Part shown: positions 19,736 to 38,784 of the stretch, piece by piece | Position numbering within the stretch: position 1 is the first letter of the stretch | Layout of the letters: every line of letters begins with the position of its first letter | Source: a virus | Virus record (IMG/VR): IMGVR_UViG_3300042455_000580 | Coordinates: 1-42,917 of that record | DNA length: 42,917 nt | Direction: 5' to 3' (one strand) | The notes under the pieces: generated by a model | The model's input: only the letters and a program-made list of their open reading frames with translations | The model's database searches: none | Told to the model about the DNA's origin: nothing | Made by a program: the position numbers and the translations under genes

Positions 19736-20095
19736 ATGTTACAGAACGATTACACAGACCCACAAATAGTGGCTCAAGCGGAAAAAGATTATCCAGAAAC
19801 TACTGCGGAATACAAACGCATTATGGTAGAACAATACGAACTATTCTGCCGAAAACAATCAAACTATGGACCAGGTAACATTTCAGTAGGAACTGAATGT
19901 AGAACTGATGCAGATATTAAACTATCTCTTACTGGATTATGGTTTCGTATCAACGATAAAATCAACCGCTTAAAACAAATGATTATTATTGGTGCACAAG
20001 ATAATGTAGGCGAATCACTTACGGATACATATCAGGACTTATCAGTCTATGGAATCATAGCACAAATCGTACAAAACAAAAAATGGGGTAAATAA
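19736..20095 (+). CDS. DUF1599 protein (nucleotide modification associated domain 1)
   Basis: A 119-residue protein from the ATG at 19736; a longer reading would overlap the previous gene. The motifs F-C-R-K-Q-S-N-Y-G-P-G-N-I-S, G-L-W-F-R-I-N-D-K-I-N-R-L-K, and E-S-L-T-D-T-Y-Q-D-L-S-V-Y-G-I-I-A match the DUF1599 family, named nucleotide modification associated domain 1 because of its gene neighbourhoods in phages. Its biochemistry is not established. The stop overlaps the start of the halogenase (TAATG), so the two are translationally coupled. Confidence 0.82.
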   Translation: MLQNDYTDPQIVAQAEKDYPETTAEYKRIMVEQYELFCRKQSNYGPGNISVGTECRTDADIKLSLTGLWFRINDKINRLKQMIIIGAQDNVGESLTDTYQDLSVYGIIAQIVQNKKWGK

Positions 20096-21630
20096 TGGAA
20101 ATAGTAATAGCTGGTGGTGGAACTGCAGGATGGTTGACTGCTTTATATGCACAACACATATGTCCAAAAGATAATATAACACTTATAGAAAGCGAAGATA
20201 TTGGTATATTGGGCGCGGGAGAAGGTTCTACCCCACAACTACCTTGGATATTATTTGCATTGGGCATTAGTGAAAATGAGCTTATAAAGTATGCAAACGC
20301 AACTTTAAAAATGGGTATTAGTTTTGAAAATTGGAGGGGTGATGGTAAAAAGTATATGCATAGTTTTGGAATTTCCGATTCAAATTTAAGTCCTTATAAT
20401 TTTACAAAAACAAAAAATACATTAGTAAGTGGTTTACCCGATAATGGACAGCAATATGCGTATATAAATGCTATTGCGAATGGTGAAACGATGGATGATA
20501 TTAGTTTGGTTTCTAAACTTGCTTACAATAATAAATCACCATTTATCAATGAAAACGGAAAAGTAAGTTTTGTTTCAAATTATAGTTACCATTTTGATGC
20601 AAGTTTATTGGCTAAATTTTTAAGAATGAAAGCCGAAGAGCGTGGTGTAAAAAGAATTGAAGCCAAAATAACCGATATTATATCAAATGAAAATGGTGGA
20701 ATTGGTTCAATAAAATGTGGTGATGTTGAAATAAAATCAGATTTTGTTTTTGATTGTACCGGATTTGCAAGATTATTTATTGGAAAACATTTTGGTGTAG
20801 AATGGAAATCGCATCAGGATAAATTAAAAGTAAATACTGCTATACCATTCTTTTTACCAAAATCAGATACTCTACCACCATACACTAAAGCGGTAGCAAT
20901 GAAATATGGTTGGATGTGGCAAATACCTTTACAGAATAGATGGGGTTGTGGATATGTATTTGATGACAAATATATTAACGTAGAAGAAGCAAAGAAAGAG
21001 GTTGAAGAAATGGTAGGACAGGAAATAAAAATCAATAAAGTTATACCATTCGATGCTGGAAGATATGTTACATCTTGGGTTAAAAATTGTATAGCGGTTG
21101 GTTTAAGTTCAACATTTACCGAACCAATTGAAGCAACATCCATTTGGTTGATAATAACACAATTGAGAAATCTAACATCTGATAATATACATAATATAGA
21201 TGAAGATGAGATTGATGATTACAACAAACTAATAGGAGATACTTGCGAAACAATAATTGATTTTTTACAATTCCATTATATTACGGATAGAAATGATACT
21301 GATTTTTGGAGAGATTACCAAAAAAGAACCACATTAAGTCCAAAAATGAAAAGACGTTTAAATAGTTGGAAAAAAAGAACTGTAAACATTAATGATAGCG
21401 ATTTTTTATTTACTCAATTTGAAGAACATAGTTGGTTTGCAGTTGCATATGGTAATGGTGTAATTGATAAATCGGTGTATGAACGTGAAAATGAAGAATA
21501 CGATTTAGATAATAAATTAGGAAATTGGTTTATAAAATATGATAATGATATAAATTATGCAGAATCTCTAGCATATACACATGAAGAGTTAATTGAGTTA
21601 GTTAAATCAAATGATATTATCCTCAATTAA
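20095..21630 (+). CDS. Flavin-dependent (tryptophan-type) halogenase
   Basis: A 511-residue protein of the tryptophan halogenase family. The N-terminus has the FAD-binding G-G-G-T-A-G-W-L (residues 7-14) and G-E-G-S-T-P. Lys72, in A-T-L-K-M-G-I, aligns with catalytic Lys79 of PrnA. The family signature W-x-W-x-I-P is W273-M-W-Q-I-P278. Glu346 in E-P-I-E-A-T aligns with the catalytic Glu of PrnA. The active site therefore looks intact for HOCl-type chemistry with reduced FAD from a separate reductase. The region holding the tryptophan-binding aromatic residues in PrnA is shorter and different, so free tryptophan is probably not the substrate. A cyanophage halogenase (VirX1 of Syn10) with broad iodinating activity is a known precedent. 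It is cotranslated with a DUF1599 gene. Substrate unknown. Confidence 0.9.
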   Translation: MEIVIAGGGTAGWLTALYAQHICPKDNITLIESEDIGILGAGEGSTPQLPWILFALGISENELIKYANATLKMGISFENWRGDGKKYMHSFGISDSNLSPYNFTKTKNTLVSGLPDNGQQYAYINAIANGETMDDISLVSKLAYNNKSPFINENGKVSFVSNYSYHFDASLLAKFLRMKAEERGVKRIEAKITDIISNENGGIGSIKCGDVEIKSDFVFDCTGFARLFIGKHFGVEWKSHQDKLKVNTAIPFFLPKSDTLPPYTKAVAMKYGWMWQIPLQNRWGCGYVFDDKYINVEEAKKEVEEMVGQEIKINKVIPFDAGRYVTSWVKNCIAVGLSSTFTEPIEATSIWLIITQLRNLTSDNIHNIDEDEIDDYNKLIGDTCETIIDFLQFHYITDRNDTDFWRDYQKRTTLSPKMKRRLNSWKKRTVNINDSDFLFTQFEEHSWFAVAYGNGVIDKSVYERENEEYDLDNKLGNWFIKYDNDINYAESLAYTHEELIELVKSNDIILN

Positions 21631-30364: not shown

Positions 30365-30396
30365 TTAGGTTATATAAAAAAGTTTTATTATCTTTG
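30365..30396 (+). promoter_or_regulatory. Host-type promoter of the Mom-like genes
   Basis: TTAGG at 30365-30369 and TATCTTTG at 30389-30396, with a 20-bp spacer from the TAG triplet. The ATG follows after 5 bp, so the mRNA may be leaderless. Confidence 0.75.
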
Positions 30397-30401
30397 TAAC
30401 T

Positions 30402-31166
30402 ATGAAAGTAGAAGGTAAGGAGTATTGTAATACATCCAAACTCATAGTTAGACCTGTGAACAAATCCGTTGCAAAGGATATTATTGTAAATAACCATTAT
30501 AGTGGTATATGGACAAAGGTATCCTATGCATTGGGTTTGTTTTATCAATCAGAGGATGAGCATCAATTTTTTAGTGGAGTAAATGAAAAGCTAATAGGTG
30601 TAGCTTGTTATGGTGACCCTATTGGTAGAAATACCGGAGCATCTATTTCCGATATGTTGGATAGAGATACAGTATTAGAATTGACTCGTTTATTTGTATT
30701 TGATGGATATGGTTCTAATATAGAGAGTTGGTTTGTAGCACAAACATTTCAATGGTTACGAGATAATACACCAAAGATTAGAGCACTAATTTCATATTCA
30801 GACCCAAAGGTTGGACACAAAGGAACTATTTACCAAGCTACTAATTGGATTTATCAAGGTAACAAAATTAGGTGGAGTGATAGTTGGAGTTTTAAGTGGA
30901 GTGAAATAGATGAGTGGCAACATGGTAGAACTATATTTCCATATTATGGTACTAATGACCCAAAGAAAATACAAACAATGGTAACATCGCCATTTTGGAT
31001 TAAACGAGAACCGCAAAAACATCGTTATGTGTATTTCCTAACTAAAGATAAAAAGGTTAGAAAGCAATTAATTAAATCCTTAAAGCATGAAACTTTCCCA
31101 TATCCAAAAGAAAGTGAAGAGCATGTTGATGAAATATATAAATTAGAACCAATTGAAAGAAGCTAA
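30402..31166 (+). CDS. Mom-like GNAT-family DNA modification protein, copy 1
   Basis: A 254-residue protein resembling the phage Mu Mom family, a GNAT-fold group that modifies adenine in DNA. Visible blocks are H-Y-S-G-I-W (about 31-36), L-I-G-V-A-C-Y-G-D-P-I-G, L-E-L-T-R-L-F-V-F-D-G-Y-G-S-N-I-E-S, a downstream I-S-Y-S-D, and G-T-I-Y-Q-A-T-N-W-I-Y-Q-G. Mom proteins use an acetyl-CoA-type fold to add a carbamoylmethyl group that protects DNA from restriction. A paralogue overlaps its 3' end. The promoter lies immediately upstream. The function is inferred from family pattern; the exact modification is unknown. Confidence 0.75.
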   Translation: MKVEGKEYCNTSKLIVRPVNKSVAKDIIVNNHYSGIWTKVSYALGLFYQSEDEHQFFSGVNEKLIGVACYGDPIGRNTGASISDMLDRDTVLELTRLFVFDGYGSNIESWFVAQTFQWLRDNTPKIRALISYSDPKVGHKGTIYQATNWIYQGNKIRWSDSWSFKWSEIDEWQHGRTIFPYYGTNDPKKIQTMVTSPFWIKREPQKHRYVYFLTKDKKVRKQLIKSLKHETFPYPKESEEHVDEIYKLEPIERS

Positions 31167-31956
31167 CAAAAATTATTGTGATACAACCAAAGTATCCGTT
31201 AGGGAGATTAGTACATCTATTGCAAAAGAAATTATTGTAAAGAAACACTATACTCACGCTTGGACTGCTTGTAGATATTCGTTGGGTATATTCTATAAAA
31301 CGGATACTGAAAATGCTTTGGGTGATGCAGAAAAACTGATAGGTTGTTTAATCTATGGGTTTCCAGTTGGAGCTAAAGCACCTACATCTGTATGCGATGG
31401 TTTGACTAAAGATAATATTTTAGAATTGACTCGTTTATATTGCGATGATGGGTATGGTTCTAACATTGAGAGTTTTGCTTTAGGGCAATCTTTTAAGTGG
31501 TTGAAGGAAAATGATAAGGCAATCAAAGTTTTGCTCTCATACGCTGATAATGGACAGGAACATTTGGGTGGAATATACCAAGCAACCAATTGGATTTATC
31601 AAGGATTAAATACTGATATTGCACTAATGCCAAATTATGGTATCTCAATCCAAAAAGACCCATACAAATGGATACATAGTAGAAGTGTATTTACTAAATG
31701 GGGAAGTGGTAATTTGGAACATCTTCGTAGAGAAATTGGTAAAGATGGATATACTGAATTTTGGAGAAGAGAAGAACCACCAAAACATAGATACATTCAG
31801 TTGATACCACAAGATAAACGTGAGAAGAAAGATTTGATGAAACGATTAAAACATCCAATCAGAGAGTATCCAAAAAATGCAAGAGAGTATAATAAGGGAA
31901 TTGAACACCATACTACAATAGAACCAAGTACGGAAATAGCTAAAAACTTTTGGTAA
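31153..31956 (+). CDS. Mom-like GNAT-family DNA modification protein, copy 2
   Basis: A 267-residue paralogue of the previous gene. It shares the N-terminal Y-C-D-T-T-K, A-K-E-I-I-V-K-K-H-Y, L-E-L-T-R-L-Y, D-G-Y-G-S-N-I-E-S and G-I-Y-Q-A-T-N-W-I-Y-Q-G blocks. The start is a TTG at 31153, the only usable codon after an in-frame TAG at 31144, giving a 14-bp overlap with copy 1 and suggesting coupled translation. Compared with copy 1 it has an insertion after the ATNWIYQG block and a longer C-terminus, so the pair has diverged. They may form a heterodimer or have different targets. Confidence 0.72.
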   Translation: MKEANKNYCDTTKVSVREISTSIAKEIIVKKHYTHAWTACRYSLGIFYKTDTENALGDAEKLIGCLIYGFPVGAKAPTSVCDGLTKDNILELTRLYCDDGYGSNIESFALGQSFKWLKENDKAIKVLLSYADNGQEHLGGIYQATNWIYQGLNTDIALMPNYGISIQKDPYKWIHSRSVFTKWGSGNLEHLRREIGKDGYTEFWRREEPPKHRYIQLIPQDKREKKDLMKRLKHPIREYPKNAREYNKGIEHHTTIEPSTEIAKNFW

Positions 31957-33080
31957 TGAACACAGAATTAGAGAAATTATATACGGCAGGACATGGTGAT
32001 GACTTTTCTATGGGCAAATACATTGCCTTAAAGACTGGTAAATTGTATAACACCACAAAGTTTTCAAATGATATAAAATTTGATAAGAAGGTTTTAGCAT
32101 TAATAGAAAATGCAGGATTTAATCAAATTCAGCAATCGGAGTATTTTATATCAACAAAGGATTCAAAACGTAATTCAACTTACGAAAAGAGGCTTGATGG
32201 TATGGATTTAATTTTAATAAATGTATCGGAGATTTCAGGTGATTTCTTTGAGGAACCTGATTATATAGAACCAGAGGCAAAATCAATAAAGAAAAATCAA
32301 TATAGATTATCATTTGCATACACTTGTTCAAACGATGTATTAAAGAACATTATATTAAATGATGTTACAAAACTATCCAAACAAAATAAAGAGGGTAAGA
32401 TACATTTATTGAAAGCAACATCCTATGGGTTTGAAACGGAAGAGTTTAAATTACCAAAACCAAAGATTGATTTAGAATTAAACTATGGTAAGGATTTTGT
32501 TAAGATAAACGATTCAATTGTAACCGCACTTACATCCAAAAAGGAACAACGAGGTAGATTAGTTCTACTACACGGATTACCAGGTACGGGTAAAACTACA
32601 TACATCAAATGGTTGGCAAATCATATGAAGAGAAAGGTATTATTTTTACCACCAATTTTGGCAGAGAGTATTGTGAATCCTGATTTTGTTCCATTCTTAA
32701 TGGATAATAAAGATTGTATTTTGGTGATTGAGGATGCTGAAAAGATTATTGGTGATAGGAATAATTCACACTCATCTACTGGTGTATCCAACATTCTTAA
32801 TTTAACCGATGGTATATTGGGTGATATTCTAAACATTAGTATTATTGCAACATTCAATATGGATAAGGAGAAGATTGATTCTGCTCTATTAAGAAAAGGT
32901 AGATTGATTGCGGAACATAAGTTTGATAAACTAAATGTAGATGATACTAATATTCTTATTAAACATTTGGGTATGGATAATGTAGTAACGGAAGGAATGA
33001 CATTAGCTGACATCTACAACATCAACACAGAACAATTCAAAACAGAAATCCAAAAGGGTAAAATCGGTTTTGGTAGGTAA
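31956..33080 (+). CDS. AAA+ ATPase
   Basis: A 374-residue protein from the ATG at 31956, which overlaps the previous stop (TAATG). The N-terminal about 190 residues are unrecognised. The C-terminal AAA+ core has Walker A G-L-P-G-T-G-K-T (207-214), Walker B C-I-L-V-I-E-D-A-E, a sensor-1-like A-T-F-N-M-D, and L-L-R-K-G-R-L with an arginine-finger-like Arg. The pattern is closest to Bcs1/classic AAA remodelling ATPases. The coupling to the Mom-like genes may be functional or only operonic. Its substrate is unknown. Confidence 0.82.
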   Translation: MNTELEKLYTAGHGDDFSMGKYIALKTGKLYNTTKFSNDIKFDKKVLALIENAGFNQIQQSEYFISTKDSKRNSTYEKRLDGMDLILINVSEISGDFFEEPDYIEPEAKSIKKNQYRLSFAYTCSNDVLKNIILNDVTKLSKQNKEGKIHLLKATSYGFETEEFKLPKPKIDLELNYGKDFVKINDSIVTALTSKKEQRGRLVLLHGLPGTGKTTYIKWLANHMKRKVLFLPPILAESIVNPDFVPFLMDNKDCILVIEDAEKIIGDRNNSHSSTGVSNILNLTDGILGDILNISIIATFNMDKEKIDSALLRKGRLIAEHKFDKLNVDDTNILIKHLGMDNVVTEGMTLADIYNINTEQFKTEIQKGKIGFGR

Positions 33081-33119: not shown

Positions 33120-33827
33120 ATGGAAAAATTTCATAAATTAGACGAAGCATCATTAGCACGGGCATATCAACACGTGGTAGATAAAAAAGTTCCTAGTTGG
33201 GGAATGGCAAGTGCATATCGTTACGCCAATACACCTGCTGAAAATAAAAAATTAAATAAACAATTAGAAGCGGATTGCAGAAAAAGGGGTTTAGGGTTTT
33301 TTAAAGTAAGTGGACATTGGAGAGAGTGTCAAGATTCAGCCATACCATATGCAAAGTGCCCATCTGATAAATTGGTAGACGCAGTAGAAGAAACTTTGTT
33401 TATACCAGGTGCACCAAAAGAATTTATGGAACATATTGTAAAAAAGTATAACCAAGATTCTGTTATATATGGTGGTAAGGATACAAAAGGAAATGCACAT
33501 TTAATTTTTAGAGAAGGTGGTGAGGAAAACATAGGTAAGTTTCACCCAAATCAAATAGGCCAAGCGTACTCTAATTTTAGAGATAAAGAAAAAACGATGA
33601 TGTTTAAGACTGGAAAAAAAGCACAAAGTGGAACAAAAGCCGGTGCAGAAAAACAACAAGCCAATATTAAAAAATTATCATCTATGATACCGGTAGGTGC
33701 ATTAGATAAGAGAATAAAGAATCCAGAAACAGGTAGAAACATTAAAGTTAAAACTGCATTGGGTTACGATAAAACATCACCCGCATATAAGACGGCATTT
33801 GCAGCAATAAAAAAACCTAAAAAATAA
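33120..33827 (+). CDS. Unknown basic protein
   Basis: A 235-residue Lys-rich protein. The block N-K-K-L-N-K-Q-L-E-A-D-C-R-K-R-G-L-G-F-F-K-V-S-G-H-W resembles DUF3293-type proteins, but this is a weak match by eye. The C-terminal 80 residues are strongly basic (many Lys and Gln) and end in K-K-P-K-K, which suggests nucleic acid binding. The upstream motif is late-type, so it may be a packaged or late protein. Confidence 0.6.
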   Translation: MEKFHKLDEASLARAYQHVVDKKVPSWGMASAYRYANTPAENKKLNKQLEADCRKRGLGFFKVSGHWRECQDSAIPYAKCPSDKLVDAVEETLFIPGAPKEFMEHIVKKYNQDSVIYGGKDTKGNAHLIFREGGEENIGKFHPNQIGQAYSNFRDKEKTMMFKTGKKAQSGTKAGAEKQQANIKKLSSMIPVGALDKRIKNPETGRNIKVKTALGYDKTSPAYKTAFAAIKKPKK

Positions 33828-36254: not shown

Positions 36255-36857
36255 ATGATTAGTTACGAAGAAATTGGTTTTTTAAATCATAAAATTTACA
36301 AAATACCTATAAGTGGTATTGATAATAAAAAGGTTATTACTGAAGTCCAAATTGATAGGGATTTGTGGATGCCAGATAAGAGATTCAATGATACTCGTAT
36401 GAGAGCACCTGGTTTACAAATGGATGGCCAAACTCTATGTGGTGATGAGACACGTAATATGTTTTCATTGTGTTATAATAAAGTAAGAGATTTTTTTACG
36501 GAGTTAAATAATGAAAAGTATTTAAGTGGATACCAAAGAACTTGGATATACATAGCAGTACCCGAATTAAAGGAAGCACATTATCACAATCATTTAAAAT
36601 TTCATCCAGATTTCGATACATTTACAGATTGGACTTGGGTATATTATGTACAAGTTCCTAATAATTGTAAAGGACCAGAAGGTAAATTGTTTTTTAGAGA
36701 TGATAAAGACCATAGTATAACACATACATTTTTTCCAGAAGAAGGATACATCTATGCATTTGATGCAAATTTGGAACATCTACCATCTCTAGCACCTACA
36801 TCTACAAAAGAAAGAATAGTAGCAGCTGGAAATGTTATTTTAAATTTTGAAAATTAA
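36255..36857 (+). CDS. 2OG-Fe(II) oxygenase-like protein 1
   Basis: A 200-residue double-stranded beta-helix type protein. The likely iron-binding motif is the H109-Y-H111-N-H113 cluster, the distal His is His175 (L-E-H-L), and a 2OG-binding Arg is Arg187 (K-E-R-I). The strand G-K-L-F-F-R-D-D between them fits the fold. It is the first of three neighbouring genes with this pattern. A GGAG site lies 11 bp before the ATG. The substrate is unknown; protein, nucleic acid or small-molecule hydroxylation are all possible. Confidence 0.72.
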   Translation: MISYEEIGFLNHKIYKIPISGIDNKKVITEVQIDRDLWMPDKRFNDTRMRAPGLQMDGQTLCGDETRNMFSLCYNKVRDFFTELNNEKYLSGYQRTWIYIAVPELKEAHYHNHLKFHPDFDTFTDWTWVYYVQVPNNCKGPEGKLFFRDDKDHSITHTFFPEEGYIYAFDANLEHLPSLAPTSTKERIVAAGNVILNFEN

Positions 36858-36860
36858 ATT

Positions 36861-37421
36861 ATGATTAAAGGGATTGAATGTCCATATATCATTTCCAAAC
36901 TATCGGAGCATGATTTAATAAAGGAAGATGTTTTAGATTTAATTAATGATGCTGAATCAAATCGTTATACATACGCAGAAGATTATACTGATATAACGAG
37001 AACTGATTGGAATATTAGTAGAGATATTGAAAGAGAATACACAAAAATTGCAATGCCTCCTATTGTGGCATTAATGCAAAACAGATTTTTAGAATTGGGT
37101 TATAATGAAATGAACATACATAATGTATGGTTTCAACAATACAAAAAAGGTTCAGAGCATGGTTGGCATGTTCACTTAAATTGCCAATTTACCAATGTTT
37201 ATTATTTAGATTTACCAGAAGGGGCCCCTAAAACGCAACTTTTAAATCCAATGAACCAAAAAGAGATTATAGAGTTAGATGTAAATGAAGGTGATGTTTT
37301 AACATTCCCAAGTTTCATTTTACATAGAGCACCAAATGTGGAAAGTAATATAGTAAAAACTATTATATCATTTAATTCAGATTGTAATATTAAATCAGTT
37401 GCTGGTTTATACGATTTTTAA
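36861..37421 (+). CDS. 2OG-Fe(II) oxygenase-like protein 2
   Basis: A 186-residue protein with H100-G-W-H103-V-H105 followed by strands (T-N-V-Y-Y-L-D-L), a distal His155 (F-I-L-H-R-A-P) after V-N-E-G-D-V-L-T-F-P-S, and Lys166 where many family members have Arg; prolyl hydroxylases also use Lys there. This matches the putative 2OG-Fe(II) oxygenase group common in marine phages. It starts 3 bp after the previous gene, forming a likely operon. Confidence 0.8.
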   Translation: MIKGIECPYIISKLSEHDLIKEDVLDLINDAESNRYTYAEDYTDITRTDWNISRDIEREYTKIAMPPIVALMQNRFLELGYNEMNIHNVWFQQYKKGSEHGWHVHLNCQFTNVYYLDLPEGAPKTQLLNPMNQKEIIELDVNEGDVLTFPSFILHRAPNVESNIVKTIISFNSDCNIKSVAGLYDF

Positions 37422-37451
37422 AAAAGTTATAATAAACTTAAAAGATTAGAT

Positions 37452-37988
37452 ATGCAAAGTATTGATATTTTTCCAATAAGAATATTTGAAAATTATATAG
37501 AAGTTCCAGATTCTTTAACCGATGGTATTAGGGAAGATATAAAAGATGATACCAAATACGATACTCCAATTGATTGGGATGGCGGTGTGTATTCATCTTT
37601 TAATTATGAAAGCAAACTATTATATGGTACTAAAGAGCATAATCAAATAATAGATAATGTTATAGAAATAGTTAAAACTACACCACCTTACAATGGATTT
37701 GGTGATAATTTTATTTATGAATATAATATGTGGTGGAATTATTATACGGCGGGAAAGTATCAAGAATACCATAGCCATGCTAACAATATACTTTCTGGAG
37801 TTTGGTATTTGAATGATTCAAATGCACATACCGTATTTTGTGATAGGGGTCTTAAACACAAAGTTTTACCAACGAAAGGTAAAATAGTTTTCTTCCCATC
37901 GTACCTACCACACTATGTAGAACCATCCGATGATGAAAGAATGACAGTAGCATTCAATTTTCAATTATCAAAGCGGAACGTAAAATAA
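37452..37988 (+). CDS. 2OG-Fe(II) oxygenase-like protein 3
   Basis: A 178-residue protein of the same group: Y-H107-S-H109-A-N-N then S-G-V-W-Y-L, F-F-P-S-Y-L-P-H154, and Arg163 (D-E-R-M-T-V-A-F-N). The pattern is the clearest of the three. It lies 30 bp after gene 2 and is the last protein gene before the RNA cluster. The three proteins share fold features but little sequence, so they are old paralogues or separate acquisitions. Confidence 0.82.
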   Translation: MQSIDIFPIRIFENYIEVPDSLTDGIREDIKDDTKYDTPIDWDGGVYSSFNYESKLLYGTKEHNQIIDNVIEIVKTTPPYNGFGDNFIYEYNMWWNYYTAGKYQEYHSHANNILSGVWYLNDSNAHTVFCDRGLKHKVLPTKGKIVFFPSYLPHYVEPSDDERMTVAFNFQLSKRNVK

Positions 37989-38007: not shown

Positions 38008-38038
38008 TTGGAATTACGAAAAAAGTTTCGTATATTTG
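38008..38038 (+). promoter_or_regulatory. Host-type promoter of the tmRNA, with inverted repeat
   Basis: TTG at 38008-38010, a 20-bp spacer and TATATTTG at 38031-38038. TACGAAA (38015-38021) and TTTCGTA (38026-38032) form an inverted repeat in the spacer, overlapping the -7 box. Confidence 0.83.
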
Positions 38039-38057
38039 TAAACGTTATTTGAAATAT

Positions 38058-38443
38058 GGGGATGACCGGCTTTTGACAGGTATGAAGACTGGTTGTATTG
38101 ATGCAAGTAAGGTTAGATGGAAACCTTTGAAGACCTATCAAACAATAAGTGCAAACGTAGAATTATCTACAATGACGTTCGAAGATGCTATGGCATGGAT
38201 GAACTCATTCGATTACGCAGTAGCTGCCTAATCAATCCCGCATCACTCGTGGGACTTAAAAAGAAGTGAACAATTTAAGGTCTCGTTTGAGGTTCTACCT
38301 ATTAAAGTGAATCTTCCACATTTGAGAGTGGCAATGGCAAAATAGAAACTCTATATTTTTTCAGTTTAGAAAAATTGAATAAACTTGTGAACGATTTACA
38401 TTAGAAACTTATTTGGACTTGGGTTCGAATCCCAACATCTCCA
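38058..38443 (+). ncRNA. ssrA: Transfer-messenger RNA (tmRNA)
   Basis: The 5' end GGGGATG pairs with the 3' end CATCTCC (38436-38442) as a tRNA-like acceptor. It includes the G3-U70 pair needed for alanine charging and A73 as discriminator. The T arm has GGGTTCGAATCCC. After the 5' domain with GACCGGC and GACAGGT, a resume-type GCA codon at 38151 opens a 26-codon tag frame ending in D-Y-A-V-A-A and TAA at 38229. The A-V-A-A end is the degradation signal type of tmRNA tags. The tag is longer than the usual 8-15 residues of bacteria. Pseudoknot-like segments follow to 38400. CCA is not encoded. It would rescue stalled ribosomes and tag incomplete proteins during infection. Confidence 0.93.
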
Positions 38444-38445
38444 CA

Positions 38446-38499
38446 AAAAATAAATGAGAAATCATTTGGATATATGAAAAAAGTTTCGTATATTTGTAT
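38446..38499 (+). repeat. 54-bp promoter repeat, copy 1
   Basis: Identical to 38584-38637. Each copy holds a complete promoter (TTG, 20-bp spacer, TATATTTG) directly upstream of an RNA gene. Confidence 0.92.
38466..38496 (+). promoter_or_regulatory. Host-type promoter of the initiator tRNA
   Basis: TTG 38466-38468, a 20-bp spacer and TATATTTG 38489-38496. The spacer has an imperfect form of the TACGAAA/TTTCGTA repeat. Confidence 0.82.
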
Positions 38500-38509
38500 C
38501 ATAATAAAT

Positions 38510-38584
38510 CGCGGGGAGGATGTTGGTTTCCCACCGGTCTCATAAGCCAGGTCTACGATAGTTCGATTCTGTCTCCCGCAACCA
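38510..38584 (+). tRNA. Initiator tRNA-fMet (CAT)
   Basis: 5' CGCGGGG pairs with TCCCGCA, leaving the C1-A72 mismatch that marks bacterial initiator tRNAs. The anticodon loop is CTCATAA, and the T arm is GATAG-TTCGATT-CTGTC. Encoded A73 and CCA complete the 3' end. It resembles E. coli tRNA-fMet at both ends. Confidence 0.9.
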
Positions 38585-38637
38585 AAAATAAATGAGAAAT
38601 CATTTGGATATATGAAAAAAGTTTCGTATATTTGTAT
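38584..38637 (+). repeat. 54-bp promoter repeat, copy 2
   Basis: Identical to 38446-38499, offset 138 bp. It precedes the small structured RNA. Confidence 0.92.
38604..38634 (+). promoter_or_regulatory. Host-type promoter of the small structured RNA
   Basis: TTG 38604-38606, a 20-bp spacer and TATATTTG 38627-38634. It is the promoter inside repeat copy 2, so transcription should start at about 38641. Confidence 0.8.
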
Positions 38638-38640
38638 TAT

Positions 38641-38728
38641 AGAAAATGAGGTTAGTATGCCGGTGTGGAGAAGTCCGGTGTTAAGAGGACCCGAGAGGTA
38701 GAAATACCATCCCACTACTCATCCAACA
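38641..38728 (+). ncRNA. Small structured RNA with tRNA-like ends
   Basis: A complete promoter directly upstream implies a separate transcript. Its ends pair: ATGAG (38646-38650) and TAGT (38653-38656) with ACTA-CTCAT (38714-38722), followed by CCA (38723-38725). Inside are the hairpins GTCC/GGAC (38673-38676 with 38687-38690) and GGTA-GAAA-TACC (38697-38708). No anticodon arm or TTCRA T-loop is seen, so it is not a normal tRNA. It could be a tRNA mimic or a degenerate tRNA. Function unknown. Confidence 0.55.
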
Positions 38729-38748
38729 AAAAAAAAGTAAAAATAATT

Positions 38749-38778
38749 TTGATATATGGAAAAAGTTTCGTATATTTG
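38749..38778 (+). promoter_or_regulatory. Host-type promoter of the large structured RNA
   Basis: TTG 38749-38751, a 19-bp spacer and TATATTTG 38771-38778. The first helix of the RNA begins within 10 bp of the expected start. Confidence 0.8.
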
Positions 38779-38784
38779 TATTAT

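Follow-up and report, generated by a model that had tools for sequence, protein, structure and literature searches.

The two overlapping genes momA and momB, found on the viral contig of 42.9 kb that was analysed here at its full length (the window), may encode two Mom enzymes that are both active and differ in their DNA targets, a reading that we favour and to which we give about an even chance, from their sequences and by analogy with the known family. We infer that each protein would be enzymatically active and would modify adenines in the DNA of the phage itself and thereby shield it from cutting by the restriction enzymes of the host, and that, after an old separation, both would have diverged outside the catalytic core, most likely toward different DNA contexts, together covering more restriction sites than a single enzyme could. 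The adenine modification and the restriction block would follow from the family to which both belong. Since momB recurs on its own, the pair most readily suggests one core enzyme and an optional second: momB would be the core enzyme, working without momA, and momA the optional addition, probably translated from the same message as momB. The record itself is probably a fragment of a larger genome, since a contig of 195 kb carries a 92% identical momA.

Both genes lie on the plus strand, momA at 30402-31166 (254 aa, ATG start) and momB at 31153-31956 (267 aa, TTG start), with an overlap of 14 nt that puts the momB start within the 3' end of momA. Starting momB at TTG is plausible, given that the orthologous momB genes begin with ATG in 48 of 65 cases and with TTG in the other 17. 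Across 261 columns, the two proteins have 41% identity (E 3e-69). The two overlapping Mom-like paralogues that a previous sequence-only reading had placed at 30402-31956 are both there, exactly at those coordinates. Both match the Pfam Mom profile PF25680 over its positions 2-202 of 202 (MomA 146.2 bits, E 1.3e-42; MomB 147.8 bits, E 4.4e-43; curated cut-off 27.1 bits) and also PHROG 1384, “Mom-like DNA modification protein” (1e-50 and 3e-47, respectively), and hence neither gene is a chance resemblance to Mom. The Mu Mom chain of the crystal entry 8bv8 was matched by sequence at 3e-9 with momA and at 1e-4 with momB. AlphaFold2 models built from the family alignments reached a mean pLDDT of 93.4 (A) and 89.4 (B); with Foldseek, 8bv8 was the top match of each model (1e-13 to 1e-14; next matches about 2e-4), and VIA-align against 8bv8 gave Z scores of 20.1 for the A model and 21.9 for the B model, with other GNATs at about 12. 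The assignment of both proteins to the Mom family, with its GNAT fold, is therefore upheld by profile and predicted structure, and neither of them fell into an unrelated group of GNATs, 8bv8 being the best match by far for both models. Judging from these sequences and models, Mom-family membership and kept catalytic competence are well supported for both proteins. The separate insertions that had also been described stand only in part, because A, B, and the Mom of a Polaribacter phage all have the larger one, which follows about residue 48; peculiar to momB are two small insertions, of 2 and of 4-5 residues, and a C-terminal tail of greater length.

The distribution of the pair was followed in isolate phages and in the IMG/VR collection. 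Searching isolate phages by tblastn with momA returned 304 records and searching with momB 261, with one Mom place in each, and two Mom genes in one isolate phage were not seen in these 304 (momA) and 261 (momB) records, where a weak second copy could escape the threshold. Searching IMG/VR with momA retrieved 80 loci, 71 of them with a momB in the same orientation. Of the nine others, eight end at most 0.7 kb past momA, and the last, L006, runs on for 1.3 kb; in its close relative L005, momB comes at 1.35 kb. Counted as distinct sequences, about 89 of 101 momB genes have an adjacent momA (a few of these being partial momA genes at a contig edge) and 12 have none; the 94 momA genes divide into 84 with momB, 8 that are truncated, and 2 basal genes (L141 and L142) with no momB nearby. 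Exactly two Moms were present on five records of 148-245 kb and momB only on two records of 238 and 266 kb, all of them possibly incomplete. The retention of two diverged paralogues together, which the sequence-only reading had pointed out in one phage, turned out to be widespread. Its further proposal of a heteromeric enzyme is disfavoured as an obligate unit because momB does not need momA, as seen in the 12 distinct sequences and the 238 and 266 kb records just mentioned; these momB-only phages led us to reject an obligate A-B heteromer, and since momB occurs without momA, each can be a unit. The alternative of two modifications, also raised in that reading, may still hold, as may two target specificities, and the anti-restriction role that it thought likely would follow from what the family is known to do. 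A momB scan of bacterial genome contigs, made in search of the host, found no relative; on one related contig (L136:4591-6732), a TonB-receptor-like ORF of Bacteroidota type directly follows momB, which may hint at the host or else reflect contamination. In the papers searched, a set without the main Mom papers, we met no account of paired Moms.

An optional heterodimer, in which A and B would form a complex, with A tuning DNA binding or specificity and lone B homodimerising, is a rather unlikely alternative, which draws on the gene overlap, whose products are likely made together, on the two chains in the Mu Mom crystal entry 8bv8, and on the fact that core-clade momA was never clearly seen without momB. 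This last point would also fit A needing B and in that sense speaks against the reading that we favour, as does the fact that many phages manage with a single Mom. However, the heterodimer has to be reconciled with the 12 distinct sequences having momB alone and with the half of the relatives in which 200-2450 nt lie between the two genes, often with another ORF there.

Core residues were assigned by alignment with Mu Mom, and their conservation was checked over 61 A and 54 B orthologues. In momA, these are H32, Y33, E93, R96, N106, S109, D134, Y144, H174, R208, and Y209, invariant in 61 of 61 orthologues, and in momB, H32, Y33, E91, R94, N104, S107, D132, Y142, H175, R213, and Y214, invariant in 54 of 54; at the other family core positions, the sole exception in both sets is one Q143R. 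S109 of A and S107 of B align with Mu S124, and the title of 8bv8 describes the S124A mutant of Mu Mom as inactive. H48, Y49, R101, S114, D139, and Y149 are functional residues of Mu Mom in its 231-residue numbering, and each of them has the same residue at the aligned position of A and of B. Mu Mom binds acetyl-CoA and iron, and the product of Mom in DNA is N6-carbamoylmethyl adenine. The median dN/dS is 0.094 for momA and 0.101 for momB, indicating purifying selection and therefore that both genes are in use; with a dN/dS of about 0.1 and a conserved core in both, one dead copy is ruled out.

The comparison of the A and B columns gave 62 that are fixed and identical and 20 that are fixed but different, a proportion that fits a changed recognition with the chemistry retained, as far as sequence can suggest it. 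The differences are located around the core; two residues past the catalytic serine, for instance, A has F111 and B has A109, and others are at positions 160-164. These same fixed differences, by the serine and in the 160-164 loop, together with an A-B identity of 41-46%, might instead be taken to mean that A and B differ in the group that they add or in their acyl donor, leaving two adenine marks; nevertheless, every family-wide core residue is alike in A and B, and we regard two chemistries as distinctly unlikely.

The usual gene order around the pair is ribonucleotide reductase, in some cases PhoH, thioredoxin, a small HTH-like ORF, momA, in some cases an 84-residue ORF, momB, a variable slot, an ORF of about 370 aa that is conserved but matches no family, and a DNA polymerase-like ORF. 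Directly 5' of momA, the window has a promoter-like motif, AAAAAGTTT-NNN-TATCTTTGTA (30377-30398, plus strand), of the Bacteroidota TAnnTTTG type, similar to four near-identical promoter-like motifs, AAAAAGTTTCGTATATTTGTA, that stand before the tmRNA and small RNA genes (38019-38780, plus strand). The motif has 9 matches with at most 3 mismatches, against 0.72 expected, and none of 100 shuffles reaches that count; being absent before most orthologous momA genes, it is lineage-specific. Elsewhere in the window, also on the plus strand, we observed the phage tmRNA itself (38058-38446), with a long predicted tag ANVELSTMTFEDAMAWMNSFDYAVAA, a GOLLD RNA (RF02032; 39278-39687; 292.6 bits, E 8e-83) between the tmRNA gene and the tRNA array, a tryptophan halogenase (20095-21630; PHROG 2928, 1e-109), and three neighbouring 2OG-Fe(II) oxygenase-like ORFs (36255-37988; PHROG 81). 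The 84-residue ORF is charged, conserved in 37 relatives (L009, L018, and 35 others), and absent from the window; it has no Pfam or PHROG match, and for both reasons it was rejected as a Com-like regulator. In another relative (L039:3381-5852), momA and momB are separated by two inserted ORFs, one methyltransferase-like and one HNH-like.

The variable slot after momB is filled in the window by an AAA ATPase ORF (31950-33080, plus strand; PF00004, 2.1e-12) that overlaps the end of momB and has only a putative functional tie to Mom, the same gene being present in only 4 of 120 loci and other genes occupying the slot elsewhere. One cluster of occupants has a GmrSD N-terminal match just under the Pfam cut-off along with weak HNH matches, and further ones comprise a weak-HNH cluster, a DruA-family cluster, and several without any match. 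In momB-only phages, the gene overlapping the start of momB is an N6/N4 DNA methyltransferase in L151 and a DruA-family protein in L156, and in the remaining ones this position is empty or has unrelated ORFs; the DruA-family protein in the momA slot was also considered as a distant Mom relative, which an hhalign probability of 0.14% left unsupported. It is conceivable, at low probability, that the two Moms make two adenine marks (or a single mark at two different groups of sites) as the protective half of a phage-encoded weapon resembling restriction-modification, whose attacking half would be the swappable nuclease or ATPase after momB; the slot varies, with nuclease matches in some of its occupants only, and it is the AAA ATPase that the window has there. 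Outside the pair, a neighbouring ORF of the SAM lyase family (33120-33827, plus strand; PF23780, 5.3e-11, 43 bits, cut-off 28) is a possible second anti-restriction gene, judged by this match. A SAM lyase would remove the methyl donor of the host methylases, and Mom is not known to need SAM. The gene adjoins the Mom pair in the closest relatives only, and in L217 it lies upstream of momB.

In the family tree, momA forms one group and momB another, each with an SH-aLRT of 99, and forcing A and B together into one clade is not rejected in this quick tree (AU p 0.73, with an even better likelihood). By their sequences, the two genes form an old and long-diverged pair, and a recent tandem duplication is ruled out, A and B being separate old clades. 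Mapped onto the momB tree, momA is gained or lost at least 6 times, at least 5 of these changes being forced by well-supported branches, and so momA, as traced on this tree, comes and goes while momB persists. Outside the momA and momB clades, we also observed a tandem pair of Moms 47% identical to each other (L173:1693-3678) and another 33% identical, with a third Mom on the same contig (L166:2352-3714); more co-resident Moms are found on the single viral contigs L150, L152, and L235. That several co-resident Moms have arisen separately in other phages suggests a recurrent benefit of having more than one Mom.

The pair could in principle be a matter of dosage or redundancy, with two copies giving simply more Mom activity, and A and B are indeed alike in fold and core, and momB-only phages do well; however, an old and deep divergence with clade-specific fixed columns is not expected of a dosage pair, and we consider this very unlikely. 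That one or both Moms act on a protein, an RNA, or a small molecule instead of DNA is hardly credible, for even though most GNAT enzymes do so, their usual targets being amines in proteins and small molecules, both structure comparisons put Mu Mom far above the other GNATs, and the Mom-specific residues are retained in A and B.

The pair matters because Mom chemistry is known from one phage enzyme and the determinants of its DNA targets are poorly understood. A naturally conserved pair of diverged Moms, accompanied by momB-only relatives, is a ready-made comparison: measured side by side, the products and target sites of either gene alone and of the two together would reveal the residues that set the DNA context or the chemistry. 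Its conservation in most uncultured relatives points to a putative two-part DNA disguise.

Among known systems, Mu Mom (Mup55; 8bv8) modifies adenines of the viral DNA and blocks restriction (PMC6483171, PMC7824862). Mu has a single Mom, regulated through Com, whose gene overlaps mom (PMC6483171). The window pair shares with Mu Mom the family (PF25680, PHROG 1384), the fold over most of the chain, and S124 with the rest of the core, but differs from it in having two diverged Moms that are extended at the C-terminus and carry an additional insertion after residue 48, and in that no Com-like gene precedes the pair. The nearest relative in an isolate phage, the Mom-like protein of Polaribacter phage P12002L (YP_009209713), is 42-43% identical to A and B, about equally far from both, and has the same insertion after residue 48; in contrast, it is encoded by a single gene, which adjoins a DNA methyltransferase gene. 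The other co-resident Moms (L173, L166, L150, L152, and L235) also amount to more than one Mom per viral contig, but they belong to other branches of the family, are 28-47% identical to one another, and lack the momA/momB arrangement. In jumbo phages, Mom domains are fused to domains with a restriction-endonuclease fold (Iyer et al. 2021, PMC7824862), and the likeness is that Mom is there tied to DNA-attacking functions, as a protein with GmrSD N-terminal and HNH matches follows momB in some relatives of the pair, the GmrSD match being below the cut-off; here, in contrast, the genes are unfused, there are two Moms, and the slot in the window holds an AAA ATPase and no nuclease.
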